Below, one piece after another: positions 274 to 5,845 of a stretch of DNA of 5,845 nt (positions within the stretch are counted from its first letter, which is position 1; each line of letters opens with the position of its first letter). The position numbers were made by a program, and so were the translations under genes. Source of the DNA: Candidatus Eiseniibacteriota bacterium (GTDB taxonomy: Bacteria; JAFGKV01); contig JALOPK010000220.1 in assembly GCA_025453925.1 (NCBI GenBank), positions 1 to 5,845 on the forward strand, read 5' to 3'. Below the pieces are notes generated by a model. It had not been told where the DNA came from. It saw only the letters and a list, made by a program, of their open reading frames with translations, and made no database searches.

Positions 274-1368
274 TCAGCTCCATACCCCGGGGATGGTCCG
301 GCCACACGAGGGGCAGGCGCCGCCCTTGAGGGTGTTGGACAGAATCGTAAAGCCCATCCGGCGTATCAGCGTAGCTCCACATCCCGGGCAGGACGTGTCC
401 TCGTACCCCAGACCGGGAACATTGCCCAAATAGACGAAGTGGAGTCCGGTTTCCTTGGCAACCCGGTAACACCGTTCCAGCGTGGATACCGGTGTGCGCG
501 GCAGATTGGTGATCCTATAGGTGGGATGGAACTGGGAGAAATGCACGGGCACCTCGGGGCCCAGCTCGCGCACCACCCATTGGCTGAGCGCCCGGATCTC
601 TCCCTCCGCATCATTCTGACCGGGCAGAATCAGGTCCACGATCTCCAGCCATGTGCCCTGCTCCTTGATCCACCGCAATGCATCCAGCACGGGCTGCAGA
701 GTCCCCGCGCACAGCTCCCGGTAGAACGTGTCGGTGAATGCTTTCAGATCAACCTTGACGGCGTCGAGCCGGGGGAGCAGTTCCATCAACGGCTCCTTGA
801 GGATGTAGCCGTTGGAGATCATGACCGACCGCAGGCCCCTCGTCCGCCCTTCGATGGCGGAATCCAGCATGTACTCGTAGAAGATGACCGGCTCGGAATA
901 CGTGTAGGCAATGCTGGCACATGATCGGTCTTTCGCAGTCGCAGCAACGGCGGCGGGAAGGAGATCCGCGCTCTTCACCTGCTCCGGACGGAACTGAGAG
1001 ATATCCCAGTTCTGGCAGAACTTGCACTCCATGTTGCAGCCGGTGGTGGCGATGGAAAAAGCGGTGGTTGCGGGCAGGAAGTGAAAGAGCGGCTTCTTCT
1101 CGATAGGATCGACATGCGCCGCCACGGCTCGCCCGTACACCAGCGTGGAATAGACGCCTTCGACGTTTTCACGAACGCCGCAGTACCCGCGTTCTCGGTC
1201 CGCAACCTCGCAGGCACGGGGGCACAGCGTGCAGGCGATCCGCTTGTCCTCCAGAGGCTTCCAGTACTTCGCCCGCCGGGTGAACTGGGCGTCAGTGTCA
1301 TCTCCCGTGCCCAAGAGCGGAACCGCTCCAAAGCCCGCCAGACTCGAGAGGAAGCACCGTCTGTTCAA
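274..1368 (-). CDS. amrS: AmmeMemoRadiSam system radical SAM enzyme, with Tat-like signal
   Basis: 364 residues. The radical SAM 4Fe-4S motif is C111-NME-C115-KF-C118, in the usual phenylalanine-preceded context. Upstream lies the family's N-terminal cysteine group (C46-TL-C49-PRA-C53 ... GY-C63-GVREN), similar to pyruvate-formate-lyase-activase-like proteins. Downstream are AYTYSEPVIFYEY (154-166), ISNGY (184-188), DAVKVDLKAF (202-211), HFSQFHPTYR (276-285) and a C-terminal zinc-ribbon-like pair, CPGC (327-330) and CPSC (352-355). The protein presumably generates the 5'-deoxyadenosyl radical to modify an unknown substrate that also involves the Memo and AMMECR1 partners. Residues 1-20 (MNRRCFLSSL plus a hydrophobic run) fit the Tat consensus RRxFL, unusual for an enzyme that needs cytosolic SAM and reductant. 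The TTG start is chosen because it overlaps the DUF362 stop, has GAGGTGA 4 nt upstream, and the twin-Arg motif follows at once. The next in-frame Met is residue 113, inside the cluster motif. Family assignment is very secure. Confidence 0.96.
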   Translation of the reverse strand: MNRRCFLSSLAGFGAVPLLGTGDDTDAQFTRRAKYWKPLEDKRIACTLCPRACEVADRERGYCGVRENVEGVYSTLVYGRAVAAHVDPIEKKPLFHFLPATTAFSIATTGCNMECKFCQNWDISQFRPEQVKSADLLPAAVAATAKDRSCASIAYTYSEPVIFYEYMLDSAIEGRTRGLRSVMISNGYILKEPLMELLPRLDAVKVDLKAFTDTFYRELCAGTLQPVLDALRWIKEQGTWLEIVDLILPGQNDAEGEIRALSQWVVRELGPEVPVHFSQFHPTYRITNLPRTPVSTLERCYRVAKETGLHFVYLGNVPGLGYEDTSCPGCGATLIRRMGFTILSNTLKGGACPSCGRTIPGVWS

Positions 1369-2333
1369 AGCGTCACCTCGCGCACCTCAATGGCGTCGCG
1401 CCGGTGCTCGCCCACACCCATGCGCCCCGCAGTCTCGATCCAGGAGGGCCGCCTATTGGCCTCGGCCAGCGAGGGAAGCCCTCGGGCTGCGCGCCGGGCC
1501 TCGATCATCTCATGGCCGATGCGATCAGCGGCAACAGGATCGCGGGACACCAGGACCCCATCGAAGTTCCACGCCCAGGCCGGCTTGTACGACGGGCCGC
1601 CGTGACACTGGGCGACTGCTCCATCCAACACCGTCAGGCAGAGTCGTTCGCGCACCGGAGCCAGCATCGCAACCTCTGCGACGTAGGGATCACAGTTGTT
1701 GCCGTGATACTTGTTGGGATTGTGGATGACGCCATACAGGTTCTTCAGTGAACACGAGATGCCGGAGAGGTCGTGGTCCTTGATGACTCCGACACTCACC
1801 AGCGCGTCGGTGTGAAGCAGCGCACTGGACACGAGGCTGCCGACCGCGCCCTGTTCGAACAGCTCCCGGCTGTACCCCACCGCATCGGTCGCGGTGGTTG
1901 CGAACCCCGCCCCTCCTGTGCCGAACCCCGCCCGTGTCAGCTCCCTTCTGCTCCTTTCCCATGCCGTGACCTCGCGCGCCCCGGAGTCACGCAGGAGTGA
2001 GGCCAGAGCCTCCGCGAGTTCCTGGCAGGGCGAGAGCGGCCGTCCCGCCAGGCAGTTGAGCTTGAGGCCGACGGTCCGGCGTCCCGCCAGAGCGTGGGCC
2101 GATGAATCCGGACCAAGCGCCGAGAGCGCGGCAGAGAGCGCGGCTTGATACGCGTCAGCCTTTGCCTTCCCGGTCAGCTCTGAGAGGCCGGGTCGACGAA
2201 CGATGACAACCCGGCTGGGTGGACCGTCCGAGGCGGTCGGTGGCCGCTTCTCGGCCTCTCCCCGGCACGGCGCATTGAACAGCCCGACCGCAGTCGCCGC
2301 GGACAGTGAACGAACGAAGGAGCGACGGTTCAT
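1365..2333 (-). CDS. DUF362 domain protein with Tat signal
   Basis: 322 residues. The N-terminus MNRRSFVRSL followed by a small hydrophobic Ala/Val/Leu run (11-20) is a twin-arginine (Tat) signal, so the mature protein is probably exported folded, perhaps with a cofactor. The body from about residue 40 fits DUF362: VGLKLNCL (88-95), VGVIKDHDLSGISCSLKNLYG (181-201, the family's K-x-H...LKN-x-G core), LTVLDGA (233-239) and VSRDPVAADRIG (262-273). DUF362 proteins are often described as iron-sulphur related. This one shows no C-terminal ferredoxin-type CxxCxxC, only scattered Cys (94, 103, 194, 214, 232, 243), so a bound cluster is not evident. The reaction is unknown. No good Shine-Dalgarno precedes the ATG at 2333; a 9-codon ORF preceded by GAGGG ends across this ATG and could couple translation. 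The stop overlaps the TTG start of the radical SAM gene (TTGA), indicating that the two are produced together. Confidence 0.93.
   Translation of the reverse strand: MNRRSFVRSLSAATAVGLFNAPCRGEAEKRPPTASDGPPSRVVIVRRPGLSELTGKAKADAYQAALSAALSALGPDSSAHALAGRRTVGLKLNCLAGRPLSPCQELAEALASLLRDSGAREVTAWERSRRELTRAGFGTGGAGFATTATDAVGYSRELFEQGAVGSLVSSALLHTDALVSVGVIKDHDLSGISCSLKNLYGVIHNPNKYHGNNCDPYVAEVAMLAPVRERLCLTVLDGAVAQCHGGPSYKPAWAWNFDGVLVSRDPVAADRIGHEMIEARRAARGLPSLAEANRRPSWIETAGRMGVGEHRRDAIEVREVTL
1373..1379 (-). promoter_or_regulatory. Shine-Dalgarno of the radical SAM gene
   Basis: GAGGTGA on the minus strand ends 4 nt before the TTG at 1368-1366. It lies inside the last codons of the DUF362 gene. It decides the start: without it the non-ATG codon and the twin-arginine N-terminus would be doubtful. 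Confidence 0.65.
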
Positions 2334-2359
2334 GAGGGAATCCCGGGCCTGAAGACCAT
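2330..2359 (-). CDS. Possible 9-codon leader ORF coupled to DUF362
   Basis: Reads MVFRPGIPS then TGA on the minus strand. The stop TGA (2332-2330) overlaps the DUF362 ATG (2333-2331) as ATGA. A GAGGG supplied by the end of the 40-bp palindromic repeat lies about 8 nt before the leader ATG, whereas the DUF362 ATG has no recognisable Shine-Dalgarno of its own. It could therefore deliver ribosomes to DUF362. Such short ORFs are common by chance, and nothing in the peptide suggests a function. Confidence 0.25.
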   Translation of the reverse strand: MVFRPGIPS

Positions 2360-2363
2360 CTGC

Positions 2364-2403
2364 GCGCCCTCACCCTCGCCCTCTCCCGCGAGGAGAGGGG
2401 ATG
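2364..2403. repeat. 40-bp palindromic repeat, copy upstream of DUF362
   Basis: Identical over 40 bp to 2853-2892 and in direct orientation, with repeat starts 489 bp apart. The hairpin CCCTCTCC/GGAGAGGG spans 2379-2399. It lies about 30 bp before the DUF362 start. The complete identity of two noncoding copies implies recent duplication, gene conversion or insertion. Recombination between them would remove the DUF559 gene and leave one copy. Confidence 0.9.
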
Positions 2404-2430
2404 TGTGTACGGCCCAGGATCGGCACGGGC

Positions 2431-2460
2431 AGAAAAGCCCCTTCTCCCCTCGGGAGAAGG
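2431..2460 (-). terminator. Terminator-like hairpin after the DUF559 gene
   Basis: On the minus strand the 9-bp stem of the inverted repeat copy is followed by GGC and then TTTTCT. It begins about 27 nt after the DUF559 stop. The short, interrupted T-run makes it a weak intrinsic terminator at best. If active it would separate transcription of the Memo-AMMECR1 half from the DUF362/radical SAM half. Confidence 0.35.
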
Positions 2461-2474
2461 TTGGGTTGAGGGGG
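2437..2474. repeat. Diverged, inverted copy of the palindromic repeat, after the DUF559 stop
   Basis: Same architecture in opposite orientation: hairpin CCTTCTCCC-ctc-GGGAGAAGG (2440-2460, 9-bp perfect stem, 3-nt loop), then TTGGGTTGAGGG, the mirror of the CCCTCACCCTCG head. It starts 12 nt beyond the DUF559 stop. Together with 2853-2892 it forms inverted flanks around the DUF559 gene. Its sequence differs from the two 40-bp copies, but the stem changes are compensatory (CCTTCT/AGAAGG versus CCCTCT/AGAGGG). Confidence 0.8.
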
Positions 2475-2486
2475 CCAGCAGTGACG

Positions 2487-2849
2487 CTACTCATGGGAAC
2501 GAGCCGCAACCCGGATGGTTTCCAACACGCTATCGGCTCTCAGGAGAACATCATTGTCCCAGAATCGCAGGATGCGAAAGCCTTGCGCCGTCATCCATTC
2601 GTCACGCGTTTCGTCAGCTCGACTGCCCGTATGCTGGCTTCCATCGACTTCCACAACCAAGCGCGCCTCTTGGCAGAAGAAGTCTGCAGTGTAGGGTCCA
2701 ATGGGACACTGTCTCCGGAACTTCAACCCGGCGGCGAGTTGTCTTCCCCGCAAACGACGCCAGAGCGCCCGCTCGGCGTCAGTGCTCCGCCGCCGTAATG
2801 AACGAGCCCGTCCGGTTCGGCTTCTGCGTGTGCTGATCGGGGTGCTCAC
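2487..2849 (-). CDS. DUF559 domain protein (small PD-(D/E)XK/Vsr-like endonuclease family)
   Basis: 120 residues, which is full length for a stand-alone DUF559 protein. Family motifs in order: TDAERALWRRLRGRQL (23-38), GLKFRRQCPIGPYTADFFC (41-59), EARLVVEVDGSQH (61-73), GFRILRFWDNDVL (90-102). The ADFFC and VVEVDG segments hold the acidic residues expected of a Vsr/PD-(D/E)XK-like nuclease fold. No member function is firmly established to my knowledge, so DNA cleavage here is inference. The N-terminus is strongly basic (many Arg in 8-21), consistent with nucleic-acid binding. The start is GTG at 2849; an in-frame stop at 2861-2859 rules out anything further upstream. A TGAGGG with SD-like spacing lies inside the flanking 40-bp repeat. 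The gene is bracketed by palindromic repeats (2853-2892 before the start, 2437-2474 after the stop) and interrupts an otherwise overlapping operon. This suggests it arrived as a small cassette. It has no obvious functional link to its neighbours. Confidence 0.88.
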   Translation of the reverse strand: MSTPISTRRSRTGRARSLRRRSTDAERALWRRLRGRQLAAGLKFRRQCPIGPYTADFFCQEARLVVEVDGSQHTGSRADETRDEWMTAQGFRILRFWDNDVLLRADSVLETIRVAARSHE

Positions 2850-2852
2850 CGT

Positions 2853-2892
2853 GCGCCCTCACCCTCGCCCTCTCCCGCGAGGAGAGGGGATG
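2853..2892. repeat. 40-bp palindromic repeat, copy upstream of the DUF559 start
   Basis: Perfect 40-bp identity with 2364-2403, same orientation. Built as a CCCTCACCCTCG head followed by a hairpin CCCTCTCC-cgcga-GGAGAGGG (2868-2888, 8-bp stem, 5-nt loop). It ends 3 nt before the DUF559 GTG and, read on the minus strand, provides its in-frame stop and a TGAGGG that can act as Shine-Dalgarno. The form is REP-like: a short palindrome with a conserved one-sided head. Confidence 0.9.
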
Positions 2893-2966
2893 CCACGCGC
2901 CAATTGCCGCCCAGTCCTTCGCGCTCCGTCATCTGCGTCAACCTGCGCTGTTGCCTGCCGGATTCT

Positions 2967-3038
2967 GGACGTTCGACGGTCGATGTTCGACGTTCCCCAC
3001 CTTCATCTTCCCTCTTTCGACGTTTGATGTTGGACGGT
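2967..3038. repeat. TTCGAYGTT-type short interspersed repeat block
   Basis: Degenerate tandem units such as GGACGTTCGACGGTCGATGT, TTCGACGTTCC and TTTCGACGTTTGATGTTGGA. Read on the minus strand it gives the low-complexity phrases RPTSNVE and HRPSNVQ. I recall such phrases being widespread as spurious ORFs in Planctomycetota, Verrucomicrobiota and Lentisphaerota genomes. It lies 17 nt beyond the Memo-AMMECR1 stop. Function unknown. Confidence 0.7.
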
Positions 3039-3055
3039 CTCGAGCCTGGCGTGAT

Positions 3056-4561
3056 CTACTTCTTCTCCTCCTCGCTGAGCAGTTCGTCCCCAAACACGAT
3101 GGACTCGAACTTCTCCAGTGTCGCCCGCTTCCACGCGTGGCGATCGAGGCCGGCCTTGCCACCCAGATGTTCCAGGTAGGCCGTGAGATCCCATCCCTGT
3201 TCCACCGGGACTTCGGGGAGGAACACCCCGCGCCGTCCCTGGGCTGAGAGCACCAATCCGTGGCGTCCGACGATGATCTCGCTGACATCCTTCACGGGCT
3301 CCAGCGGCGTCAGCACGCTGATCTTGAACGACAGCCCGGAATACTCCGCCTTCTCCACCGGATTGAACCGGGGATCCCGGAACGCCGCCGAGAACGCATT
3401 GTCCGCCACGGCCTCGGCCAGAGGCTTGAGTCCCTCGATATACCCGATGCACCCCCGCAGATCCCCGTCGGCAAACAGCGTGACGAACACTCCGGCCGAA
3501 CGCGACACCGCGGGGCTCATCCGGCCCTTCCACTCCTCGAGATCGGGCCCCGGCAGCCCGCTCACTCGCCTCGTCACCACCTCCCGGGCGAGCAGGACCA
3601 ATTCCCTCCGATCGCTCTCGGGAAGGGAGAACCCTCGCTCCGGCATGACGGAAACCTCCTCGGAATCGGTAGAGAAACTGATTGCCAGGTAGCTGACCGA
3701 ACTCTCGGTGGTCGGCATGGCATCGAGGGAGGTGCTGGCGTGGATGAGCTCACCCCGGCTGCCCTCCGGGAGCATCTCCAGCGCCACTGCGATCGGCCCT
3801 CTTCCGCATATGGTGTCCTTGGTGCGCGCAACGTACGAATCGAAGCCGTCGGCATCACGGCCGCAAATCAGGTCGGCGGCCTCATGGTTCATGGCCGAAA
3901 GTCGCTGCCGAAGGTCGGCCACCGAACCGGCGGTGAACGGGACGTAGTCAAAGCGCTCACCATAGTGGGTGAAGTCGCTGCTGACGACCACGAGGGTTTG
4001 ATCATCCAGGTGGCGGGCCAGGAGCCGCGCCAACGCCCTGCGGTTCTCCGGCGACACGTCGCCGATCAAGACCGGCACCAAAGTGAACTCATCCAGGATT
4101 ACCTGCAGGAACGGCAGGTGGATTTCGATGGCATGCTCGCTCGCCTCTGCCGCGCGGTTCTCTTTCACCAGCGGATCCTTGAGCAGCGACTCGCACGCGG
4201 CGCGATCAACCGGCACGGTGCCCAGCGGCGTCTGATAGGCATCGAACGGGCCGACTGCCGCCCCTCGAACCCAGGCGCGGTGGCTCGGGGAGAGCACCAT
4301 CACTCGGCGGAATCGCTCCTTTGGAACTCTGGCGTAGCCGAACGCGGCCGTACGGGCAGAGTACTGATACCCCGCGTGGGGGACGATGAGCGTGGTAAGG
4401 GCGGGGTCCGGCTGCTGCGCGGCCTCGCGGAGATATGATTCGACCGTGGCGCGCAGTTCGTCCGCTCGACCCGGATACCATGACCCGGCGAGCACCGACG
4501 TGCGCACCTCCCCCGATCCACTGTGACAGCTGAGGAAGAGCAGCATGATCGCAACCCTCAT
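3056..4561 (-). CDS. amrB/amrA: Memo-AMMECR1 fusion protein (AmmeMemoRadiSam system proteins B and A in one chain)
   Basis: 501 residues with two domains. Residues about 20-297 are a Memo (protein B) domain, from VLAGSWYPG (23-31) to SVSYLAISF (288-296). They keep the family's metal-site residues: His62 (VPHAGY), His94 (SPSHR), Asp196 and His199 (SSDFTHYG), and Cys252 (TICGRGPI). These match the H/H/D/H/C set known from human MEMO1, a relative of LigB-type non-haem-iron dioxygenases. Residues about 312-490 are an AMMECR1 (protein A) domain with the signature LRGCIG (368-373), FRDPRFNPV (394-402) and the GVFLPEVPVEQGWD stretch (445-458). The biochemical reaction of this pair is not known. Memo proteins usually start near the AGSxYP motif; here about 20 extra residues precede it, with a short hydrophobic run ending FLSC (9-12), so a lipoprotein or membrane-targeted form is possible. 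The ATG overlaps the gpmI stop (ATGA), and AGGGA lies 8 nt upstream. I see no closer upstream in-frame start. Domain assignment is secure; localisation is uncertain. Confidence 0.95.
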   Translation of the reverse strand: MRVAIMLLFLSCHSGSGEVRTSVLAGSWYPGRADELRATVESYLREAAQQPDPALTTLIVPHAGYQYSARTAAFGYARVPKERFRRVMVLSPSHRAWVRGAAVGPFDAYQTPLGTVPVDRAACESLLKDPLVKENRAAEASEHAIEIHLPFLQVILDEFTLVPVLIGDVSPENRRALARLLARHLDDQTLVVVSSDFTHYGERFDYVPFTAGSVADLRQRLSAMNHEAADLICGRDADGFDSYVARTKDTICGRGPIAVALEMLPEGSRGELIHASTSLDAMPTTESSVSYLAISFSTDSEEVSVMPERGFSLPESDRRELVLLAREVVTRRVSGLPGPDLEEWKGRMSPAVSRSAGVFVTLFADGDLRGCIGYIEGLKPLAEAVADNAFSAAFRDPRFNPVEKAEYSGLSFKISVLTPLEPVKDVSEIIVGRHGLVLSAQGRRGVFLPEVPVEQGWDLTAYLEHLGGKAGLDRHAWKRATLEKFESIVFGDELLSEEEKK

Positions 4562-5845
4562 GGTGTGATCCCTGACGGCGTGATGAGACTCGGTAAGAAC
4601 TCCTCTGGAGCATTGTACCCCAATAGATTGAGTATCGTTGCGGCGACATTGCCCAGACCCGGGTCAGGCGCCGACCGGAGCGCGTAGCCCGGACGGGAAC
4701 GCGTATCCGCGATCAGGAAGGGCACGGGGTTGAGGCTGTGACTCGTAAGCGGCAGCGGAGTTCCCGACGAATCCCGCAGCACCAACCCGTTCTTGGCCCG
4801 CTGGTACATCTGATCTGCGTTGCCGTGGTCGGCGGTGACCACCATGACGCCGCGAGCTTTGCGAATCTCGTCCCATACTCGCCCGATGCAGAGATCGACC
4901 GCCTCAACGGCAATGATGGTAGCGTCCATCACCCCGGTATGCCCCACCATGTCGCCGTTGGCGAAGTTCACCCGGATGAAGGGAAAGAGGCTCGAGCGAA
5001 TGCCTTCGATCACCTCGTCGGCCACCTCGGCGGCCTTCATCCAGGGTCGCTGCTCGAAAGGCACCCGATCGGATGGCACTTCTGTATAGCGTTCGATCTC
5101 ATCATCGAACTTGCCGCTACGGTTCCCGTTCCAGAAGTACGTGACATGCCCGAATTTCTGCGTCTCCGCCACCGCGAGCTGCGGCACGCATGCCGCAACC
5201 AGATACTCGCTCACGGTGCGCGCGATGGCGGGAGGTTCGACGAGATAGCGTGACGGGATGTGCAGGTCGCCGTCATACTGCATCATGCCTGCATAGAGGA
5301 CCTCCGGCCGCGCCATGCGGTCGAAGTAGGCGAACTCGTCATCCTCGAATGCGCGGCTGATCTCGATGGCGCGGTCGCCGCGGAAGTTGAAGAAGAGGAC
5401 CACGTCGCCGTCCCGCATGACCCCCACCGGGGCGCCCTCATCGGCGATGACAAACTCGGGTAGGAACTGGTCGCTGAGGCCAAGTTCCGTCCGGTACGTG
5501 CGGATTGCCGTCTCCGCATCGGGAAACTGGCGCCCATTCCCGTGCACGTGGGCCTCCCATCCCCGCTGCACGATCCGCCAGTCAGCCTGGTAGCGATCCA
5601 TGGTGGTCACCATGCGGCCGCCGCCGCTGGCGATCCGGTAGTCAAGGCCGGCGCCGCGATACCCGGCGAGCTTCTCCTCCAGAGGCCTGACATACTCCAG
5701 GGCACTGGTCTCCGGCACATCCCGCCCATCCAGCAGGACGTGAACCCGGGCACGCGGCGCCCCGTCCGACCGCGCTCGGTCCAGCAGCATGAACAGATGG
5801 CGGATGTGACTGTGTACGTTGCCGTCGGACAGCAATCCGATGAGA
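4558..5845 (-). CDS. gpmI: 2,3-bisphosphoglycerate-independent phosphoglycerate mutase, plant-like type (5' end outside the window)
   Basis: Glycolytic/gluconeogenic enzyme interconverting 3- and 2-phosphoglycerate in the cytosol through a phosphoserine intermediate with two divalent metal ions. The visible 428 residues begin in the transferase/phosphatase inter-domain region and run to the natural C-terminus, so about 100 or more N-terminal residues, including the catalytic serine, lie beyond the edge. Numbering from the first complete codon: LLSDGNVHSH (4-13), HVLLDGRD (35-42), SGGGRMVTTMDRY (73-85), FFNFRGDR (151-158), KFGHVTYFWNGNRSGKF (230-246), NFANGDMVGHTG (293-304), TADHGNADQM (337-346) and TSHSLNPVPF (367-376). 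The last three hold the metal-binding Asp/His residues. The wording of the middle motifs resembles plant and kinetoplastid iPGM more than the Bacillus/E. coli type. The reading frame stays open to the window edge; a TTG at 5835-5833 is an internal Leu codon of the GLLSDG motif, not the start. The stop overlaps the next gene by 4 nt (TCAT on the plus strand), implying co-translation with the Memo-AMMECR1 gene. The family assignment is very secure. Confidence 0.96.
   Translation of the reverse strand, partial: LIGLLSDGNVHSHIRHLFMLLDRARSDGAPRARVHVLLDGRDVPETSALEYVRPLEEKLAGYRGAGLDYRIASGGGRMVTTMDRYQADWRIVQRGWEAHVHGNGRQFPDAETAIRTYRTELGLSDQFLPEFVIADEGAPVGVMRDGDVVLFFNFRGDRAIEISRAFEDDEFAYFDRMARPEVLYAGMMQYDGDLHIPSRYLVEPPAIARTVSEYLVAACVPQLAVAETQKFGHVTYFWNGNRSGKFDDEIERYTEVPSDRVPFEQRPWMKAAEVADEVIEGIRSSLFPFIRVNFANGDMVGHTGVMDATIIAVEAVDLCIGRVWDEIRKARGVMVVTADHGNADQMYQRAKNGLVLRDSSGTPLPLTSHSLNPVPFLIADTRSRPGYALRSAPDPGLGNVAATILNLLGYNAPEEFLPSLITPSGITP

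Follow-up and report, generated by a model that had tools for sequence, protein, structure and literature searches.

Radical SAM enzymes depend on SAM and strong reductants and are for that reason regarded as confined to the cytoplasm; can an AmmeMemoRadiSam system, which is built around such an enzyme, nevertheless work outside the cytoplasm when its proteins begin with what look like export signals? The question is raised by a window of 5,845 nucleotides (the whole stretch of DNA analyzed here), which makes up all of contig C241 in a 3.9-Mb draft genome (502 contigs) that is 82% complete. A reading of the window made before any database search (hereafter, the sequence-only reading) had placed a complete AmmeMemoRadiSam set at positions 274 to 4561 and had proposed that it represents an envelope-targeted branch, every component of which carries an export-like N terminus. 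We consider it likely, with a probability of about 0.68, that the window encodes an extracytoplasmic, membrane-surface AmmeMemoRadiSam machine; the export itself is inferred from sequence.

The minus strand of the window reads, in order, gpmI, the Memo-AMMECR1 fusion, a DUF559 ORF, DUF362, and the radical SAM gene (Table 1), with the AmmeMemoRadiSam genes clustered within 4.3 kb on one strand. All three defining components score above their NCBIfam cutoffs: the radical SAM protein reaches 397.5 bits against TIGR04337 (cutoff, 220), the Memo part of the fusion 223.4 bits against TIGR04336 (cutoff, 26), and the AMMECR1 part 158.5 bits against TIGR04335 (cutoff, 99). These profile matches and the gene calls upheld the coordinates and components of the set as first read, with one correction: DUF362, which had been counted among the components, is an associated gene and not one of the three that define the system. 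The neighboring gpmI is not part of the system, nor is the DUF559 ORF; gpmI adjoins the cluster in three genomes of the window's family. By every feature that could be tested, the window is a member of AmmeMemoRadiSam, differing in location, gene fusion, and partners. The extended N termini appear to be natural starts, since the ATG of Memo-AMMECR1 at 4561 overlaps the gpmI stop (ATGA), and the TTG of the radical SAM gene at 1368 overlaps the DUF362 stop (TTGA) and has GAGGTG upstream.

Table 1. Genes, putative signals, and conserved sites in the window (positions counted from the first letter of the window)
Feature	Position	Strand	Remarks
Radical SAM protein of AmmeMemoRadiSam system	274..1368	-	364 aa, TTG start; exported branch; TIGR04337, PF04055, tree position
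Radical SAM cluster motif CNMECKFC (C111, C115, C118)	1015..1038	-	Invariant in 130/130 exported and 116/116 unsignalled homologues
Putative Tat signal of radical SAM protein, MNRRCFLSSLAGFGAVPLLGTGDDTDA	1288..1368	-	Twin Arg at 1357-1362; R3 and R4 invariant in alignment
DUF362 protein	1365..2333	-	322 aa; PF04015; predicted LarA fold
Putative Tat signal of DUF362, MNRRSFVRSLSAATAVGLFNAPCRGEA	2253..2333	-	Twin Arg at 2322-2327; M1, R3, R4, and F6 invariant in alignment
DUF559 (Vsr-like) ORF	2487..2849	-	PF04480; inserted in cluster, no signal
Memo-AMMECR1 fusion	3056..4561	-	501 aa; Memo residues 20-296, AMMECR1 residues 320-490; TIGR04336 and TIGR04335 above cutoff
AMMECR1 LRGCIG motif	3443..3460	-	Invariant in AMMECR1 alignment
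Memo Cys252	3806..3808	-	Aligned with MEMO1 metal ligand C244
Memo His94	4280..4282	-	Aligned with MEMO1 metal ligand H81
Memo His62	4376..4378	-	Aligned with MEMO1 metal ligand H49
Putative Sec signal peptide of Memo-AMMECR1, MRVAIMLLFLSCHSGSGEV	4505..4561	-	Hydrophobic N terminus in 51/53 fused copies
gpmI (phosphoglycerate mutase)	4558..5845	-	TIGR01307; 5' end beyond contig; upstream neighbor overlapping Memo start

The signals were called by simple rules and not by SignalP, and the evidence for them rests mainly on conservation. In the same-genus and same-family genomes, the radical SAM protein begins MNRRCFLSGLAG and MKRRVFLGGLLS, respectively, with the motif retained, DUF362 begins MNRRSFVHSL and LNRRSFLQAL, and the Memo N terminus is likewise hydrophobic in both. 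R3 and R4 are the sole invariant residues within the first 30 of 11 aligned exported radical SAM proteins (the other members being 44 to 83% identical to the window's protein). Because that set was picked as exported by eye, DUF362 provides the fairer test: seven proteins gathered by similarity, and not by motif, keep M1, R3, R4, and F6 invariant in an otherwise variable N terminus. The simple Tat rule fires on 5.8% of 962 neighboring ORFs and on 3.2% of shuffled N termini, and it is satisfied by nearly all radical SAM proteins of the exported branch. Across 81 radical SAM proteins, the motif is RRxF(L/I)K, which is the textbook Tat consensus, and TatC is encoded in the window genome (235 bits). 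Among 58 untruncated DUF362 relatives, 45 have the twin-Arg motif; the 13 without a signal come mainly from Aminicenantes and Zixibacteria. In some radical SAM lineages, Tat has been swapped for a Sec-like or transmembrane (TM) segment, and one member uses RK.

For Memo-AMMECR1, the N terminus is hydrophobic in 51 of the 53 fused copies versus none of the three unfused Memo proteins of the other branch. We read the signal as Sec-type, an inference from sequence alone, and find no support for a lipid anchor; lipobox-like N termini occur only in scattered relatives. The lipoprotein reading of the FLSC at the end of the hydrophobic run was rejected, as the Cys is absent from the same-genus copy, which reads MRVAIMLLLLSIQSGSAE. 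The Tat motifs that the sequence-only reading had claimed for the radical SAM protein and DUF362 therefore held, the twin Arg being conserved in the alignments, as did its hydrophobic Memo extension, now as a Sec signal; its hint of a lipoprotein failed.

To be more than a quirk of one genome, the signals should follow the phylogeny of the enzyme, and they do so closely. When 251 radical SAM homologues were placed in a tree, one bipartition (support, 95) fits the signal label for 236 of 237 scored sequences; sequences with an unclear N terminus, ten of which lie within the exported side, were left unscored. A separate tree of 139 radical SAM sequences requires a single change between signal and no signal. 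The tree input comprised 60 matches from a whole-genome sample, 80 named loci, and 112 matches from Thermodesulfobacteriota loci; the 80 named loci had been selected for resemblance to the exported form, and this subset is therefore biased towards it. The named exported loci cover at least 15 named phyla, most commonly Acidobacteriota, Planctomycetota, Zixiibacteriota, Omnitrophota, and Myxococcota. A few radical SAM proteins of the exported branch have no recognizable signal, and the window genome also encodes a signal-less radical SAM paralogue (G000:C361) and a second Memo without a signal. The sequences thus show that the export signals mark one deep, widespread branch; that the proteins are exported remains inferred.

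The exported enzyme does not have the appearance of a decaying one, because every one of the 11 conserved cysteines is retained in 130 exported and 116 unsignalled sequences (one gapped row in the unsignalled set excepted) and the TYxEP SAM motif is kept. Homologues that lack the N-terminal segment while keeping everything else would have refuted the proposal of an envelope-targeted branch, and the outcome was the opposite: the unsignalled homologues make up the remaining side of the tree, where a linked DUF362 and a fused Memo-AMMECR1 are almost always lacking. Conservation, the tree, the independent signal types, and a linked membrane protein described below all support that proposal.

The partners of the radical SAM enzyme separate the two branches as well. 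Fusion of Memo with AMMECR1 is confined to exported loci (53 versus 0, one duplicate removed). The window Memo shares its His, His, Cys metal site with human MEMO1 (PDB 7KQ8) and with class III extradiol dioxygenases; unlike human MEMO1, it bears a signal and is fused to AMMECR1, and both its metal and its activity are only inferred. As background on the other half of the fusion, a 2026 model (PMC13386939) gives the AMMECR1 family the largest weight that it lists for any anaerobe marker.

Members of the close DUF362 family were seen at 49 exported loci and at one other locus. An AlphaFold model of the window protein (pLDDT, 92.4) predicts a LarA fold: it matches lactate and malate racemases with Z scores of 14 to 16.6, the best match in VIA-align being a malate racemase (Z, 16.6; 204 residues; rmsd, 3.1), versus 5.8 for the next unrelated fold. 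The predicted fold is thus common to the LarA superfamily (Pfam clan CL0471), but the window protein belongs to PF04015 and not DUF2088, has about 320 residues compared with 393 to 480, carries a Tat signal, and is not always accompanied by larC in the genome. H187, K197, and H210 share their spacing and offset with LarA H174, K184, and H200, a match of spacing and offset only, and K197 and H210 are invariant in 52 relatives. No sequence match for DUF362 was found in the PDB. A role as a nickel-pincer enzyme is no more than possible: larC is present in five of the seven genomes with window-type DUF362 and missing in two. If a pincer-type cofactor were bound, Tat export of DUF362 would make sense. 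Viral origin or carriage of DUF362 was rejected, as no relative was found in viral contigs.

The strongest new link is to a membrane protein, mostly of 710 to 790 residues, which is present at 45 exported loci and at no unsignalled locus. It often lies on a different contig from the cluster. Genome-wide, 40 of the 42 genomes that hold the exported branch encode it, versus 4 of 82 without the branch. Two genome samples gave 16/17 versus 1/43 (P of about 2e-12) and 24/25 versus 3/39 (P of about 3e-13); these statistics ignore shared ancestry, but the two samples cover different phyla. The exceptions run both ways. Of the two exported-branch genomes in which the protein is missing, one is the draft genome of the window (a same-genus query found none, a weak negative in a draft 82% complete, whose incompleteness possibly explains the absence), whereas G086, G088, and G125 carry it without a detected exported radical SAM gene; G046 holds a distant full-length copy. 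In a structural model (pLDDT, 92.3), one part takes an MFS fold (match to SV2A; Z, 26; 356 residues) and another is a spermidine synthase domain (Z, 30). Hydropathy predicts 14 helices, arranged as six, one extra, the soluble domain, one extra, and six, and, together with positive-inside counts, places the spermidine-synthase-like domain outside the membrane. Most copies have another residue in place of the catalytic Asp of aminopropyltransferases; the nucleotide motifs GGGxxG, ELDP, and DGR persist in the majority of lineages but have been lost from Zixibacteria and from the family of the window, including the window's two nearest relatives. Both parts are present in the known fused MFS/spermidine synthase proteins (NF037959 and PRK03612), from which the linked protein differs in the mostly replaced Asp, the loss of nucleotide motifs in some lineages, and the predicted outside position of the domain. 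No paper on fused MFS/spermidine synthase proteins was found in the literature searched.

Taken together, these results suggest a working scheme, each step of which is an inference. The radical SAM enzyme would receive its iron-sulfur clusters in the cytoplasm, be exported folded by Tat, and work with Memo-AMMECR1 at the outer face of the inner membrane, Memo-AMMECR1 having taken up its His/His/Cys metal ion outside. The MFS-type transporter, with its outside-facing spermidine-synthase-like domain, would move a small molecule for the system; the cargo that calls for the fewest assumptions would be SAM or an adenosyl by-product, though this is speculative. In some lineages, a NapH-like membrane ferredoxin may feed electrons from the quinol pool, which is equally speculative, as a NapH/NapG-like membrane ferredoxin lies near nine exported loci and the link covers only some loci. 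There are no direct data on the substrate, the electron source, or the SAM supply, the latter two being inferred. A bolder version, which we regard as no more than possible, is that the enzyme is an exported radical SAM enzyme served by a dedicated MFS protein that carries SAM or its by-products, the outside domain holding the adenosyl ligand. The suggestion, in the sequence-only reading, that the system modifies or metallates an exported partner remains unproven. Several points count against the main reading: radical SAM chemistry outside the cytoplasm is awkward, neither a SAM pool nor a low-potential donor being known there; the membrane protein is missing in the window genome; and the motifs of that protein are lost in the window's nearest relatives.

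The main rival is action before export: while still in the cytoplasm, and supplied with SAM and electrons there, the radical SAM enzyme would act a single time on a partner (DUF362, for example). Tat would then move the completed complex across the membrane, and outside the radical SAM protein would be only a structural or electron-transfer subunit. In its favor, Tat carries folded complexes with which untagged partners can hitchhike (PMC10924467), DUF362 is signal-less in Aminicenantes and Zixibacteria beside a signal-bearing radical SAM protein, and no SAM would be needed outside. Against it, Memo-AMMECR1 would go unfolded by Sec, so the three proteins could meet only outside, several lineages have a Sec or TM segment on the radical SAM protein itself, and the linked transporter-like protein is left unexplained; on balance, we consider this rival unlikely. 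Less likely still is a membrane tether, in which the N termini do no more than hold the proteins against the cytoplasmic side of the membrane, without the catalytic domains ever crossing it. Some lineages do show a long TM segment at the N terminus with no obvious site of cleavage (L077 and L174), in two genomes the TM segment is encoded by a small ORF of its own upstream (L050 and L054), and ordinary access to SAM would be explained; however, the conserved RRxF-L/I-K is a Tat targeting motif that tethering does not need, the Memo-AMMECR1 signals look cleavable, with lipoboxes in a few relatives implying export, and positive residues before the hydrophobic segment point to an N-in, C-out orientation. 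Finally, vestigial or misannotated N termini (upstream read-through or functionless relics), an alternative raised in the sequence-only reading, draw some support from alternative starts inside each extension but are all but excluded, as the twin Arg is invariant in divergent surroundings, the window's starts overlap upstream stops, the fit to one clade is near perfect, and signal types are swapped (Tat for Sec or TM) rather than lost.

The preferred reading, an extracytoplasmic machine, has a known parallel for the proposed route: Tat-exported iron-sulfur proteins such as hydrogenase small subunits and HybA have a twin-Arg signal and are folded before export (PMC10924467), as proposed here for the radical SAM protein; the difference is that the window protein is a radical SAM enzyme. 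To our knowledge, no exported radical SAM enzyme has been characterized, and none was found in the literature searched. The system itself is known by name only (TIGR04335, TIGR04336, and TIGR04337), and that name turned up in just five papers, a single time in each; the literature searched, which covered few subscription journals, gave no function for AmmeMemoRadiSam, DUF362, or AMMECR1 and did not mention an exported form, which appears to be new. The window branch has radical SAM cysteine motifs identical to those of cytoplasmic AmmeMemoRadiSam and differs from it in its export signals, the Memo/AMMECR1 fusion, the DUF362 and MFS/spermidine-synthase-like partners, and its separate branch in the tree. 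If the reading is true, an exported branch in at least 15 phyla with intact catalytic cysteines would break the cytoplasm-only rule. The branch also offers a handle on AmmeMemoRadiSam, with its short set of recurring parts and a transporter-like partner to which it is strongly linked.

Several minor observations were made at related loci. The radical SAM proteins with a Sec-like or TM N terminus in place of Tat include those of L157, L166, L171, L173 to L175, and L177; such N termini would imply either cluster insertion outside or a signal anchor. In L050 (G016) and L054 (G037), the radical SAM gene is split, and the small upstream ORF with the TM segment ends in a REARFY-like domain start, its TGA overlapping or adjoining the ATG of the main ORF. 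These two genomes, which are of different families, may use termination-reinitiation or frameshifting here. Tandem pairs of radical SAM genes were seen at L274 (G108:C12) and L281 (G071:C31), and one of the pair at L274 is signal-less though inside the exported branch. The signal-less radical SAM paralogue adjoins a larC-like (nickel-pincer) gene fragment in two family genomes (L039, G000:C361; and G002:C46).

Signal-less DUF362 proteins that start directly at the domain lie beside a Tat-bearing radical SAM protein at L113, L140, L149, L152, and L176 (Aminicenantes and relatives) and at L102, L136, L156, and L163 (Zixibacteria and relatives), an arrangement that may point to a cytoplasmic role for DUF362 or to its export by hitchhiking. 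A second DUF362 family, mostly with its own Tat signal, occurs near exported loci in Acidobacteriota and Zixibacteria (L114, L120, L124, L125, L129, L131, L133, L136 to L138, L155, L156, and L159), sometimes beside a NapH/NapG-like fused membrane ferredoxin; a ferredoxin within this second family as the electron donor was rejected, as its members have one to seven cysteines and no obvious 4Fe-4S motif. A DUF6599 protein is present at 10 exported loci. In the window itself, an exact 40-nt direct repeat (2364-2403 and 2853-2892, 489 nt apart) flanks the DUF559 ORF, which is absent between the corresponding genes of the same-genus genome G001, where Memo-AMMECR1 and DUF362 nearly abut; with these repeats and that abutment, the DUF559 ORF resembles a small mobile cassette.
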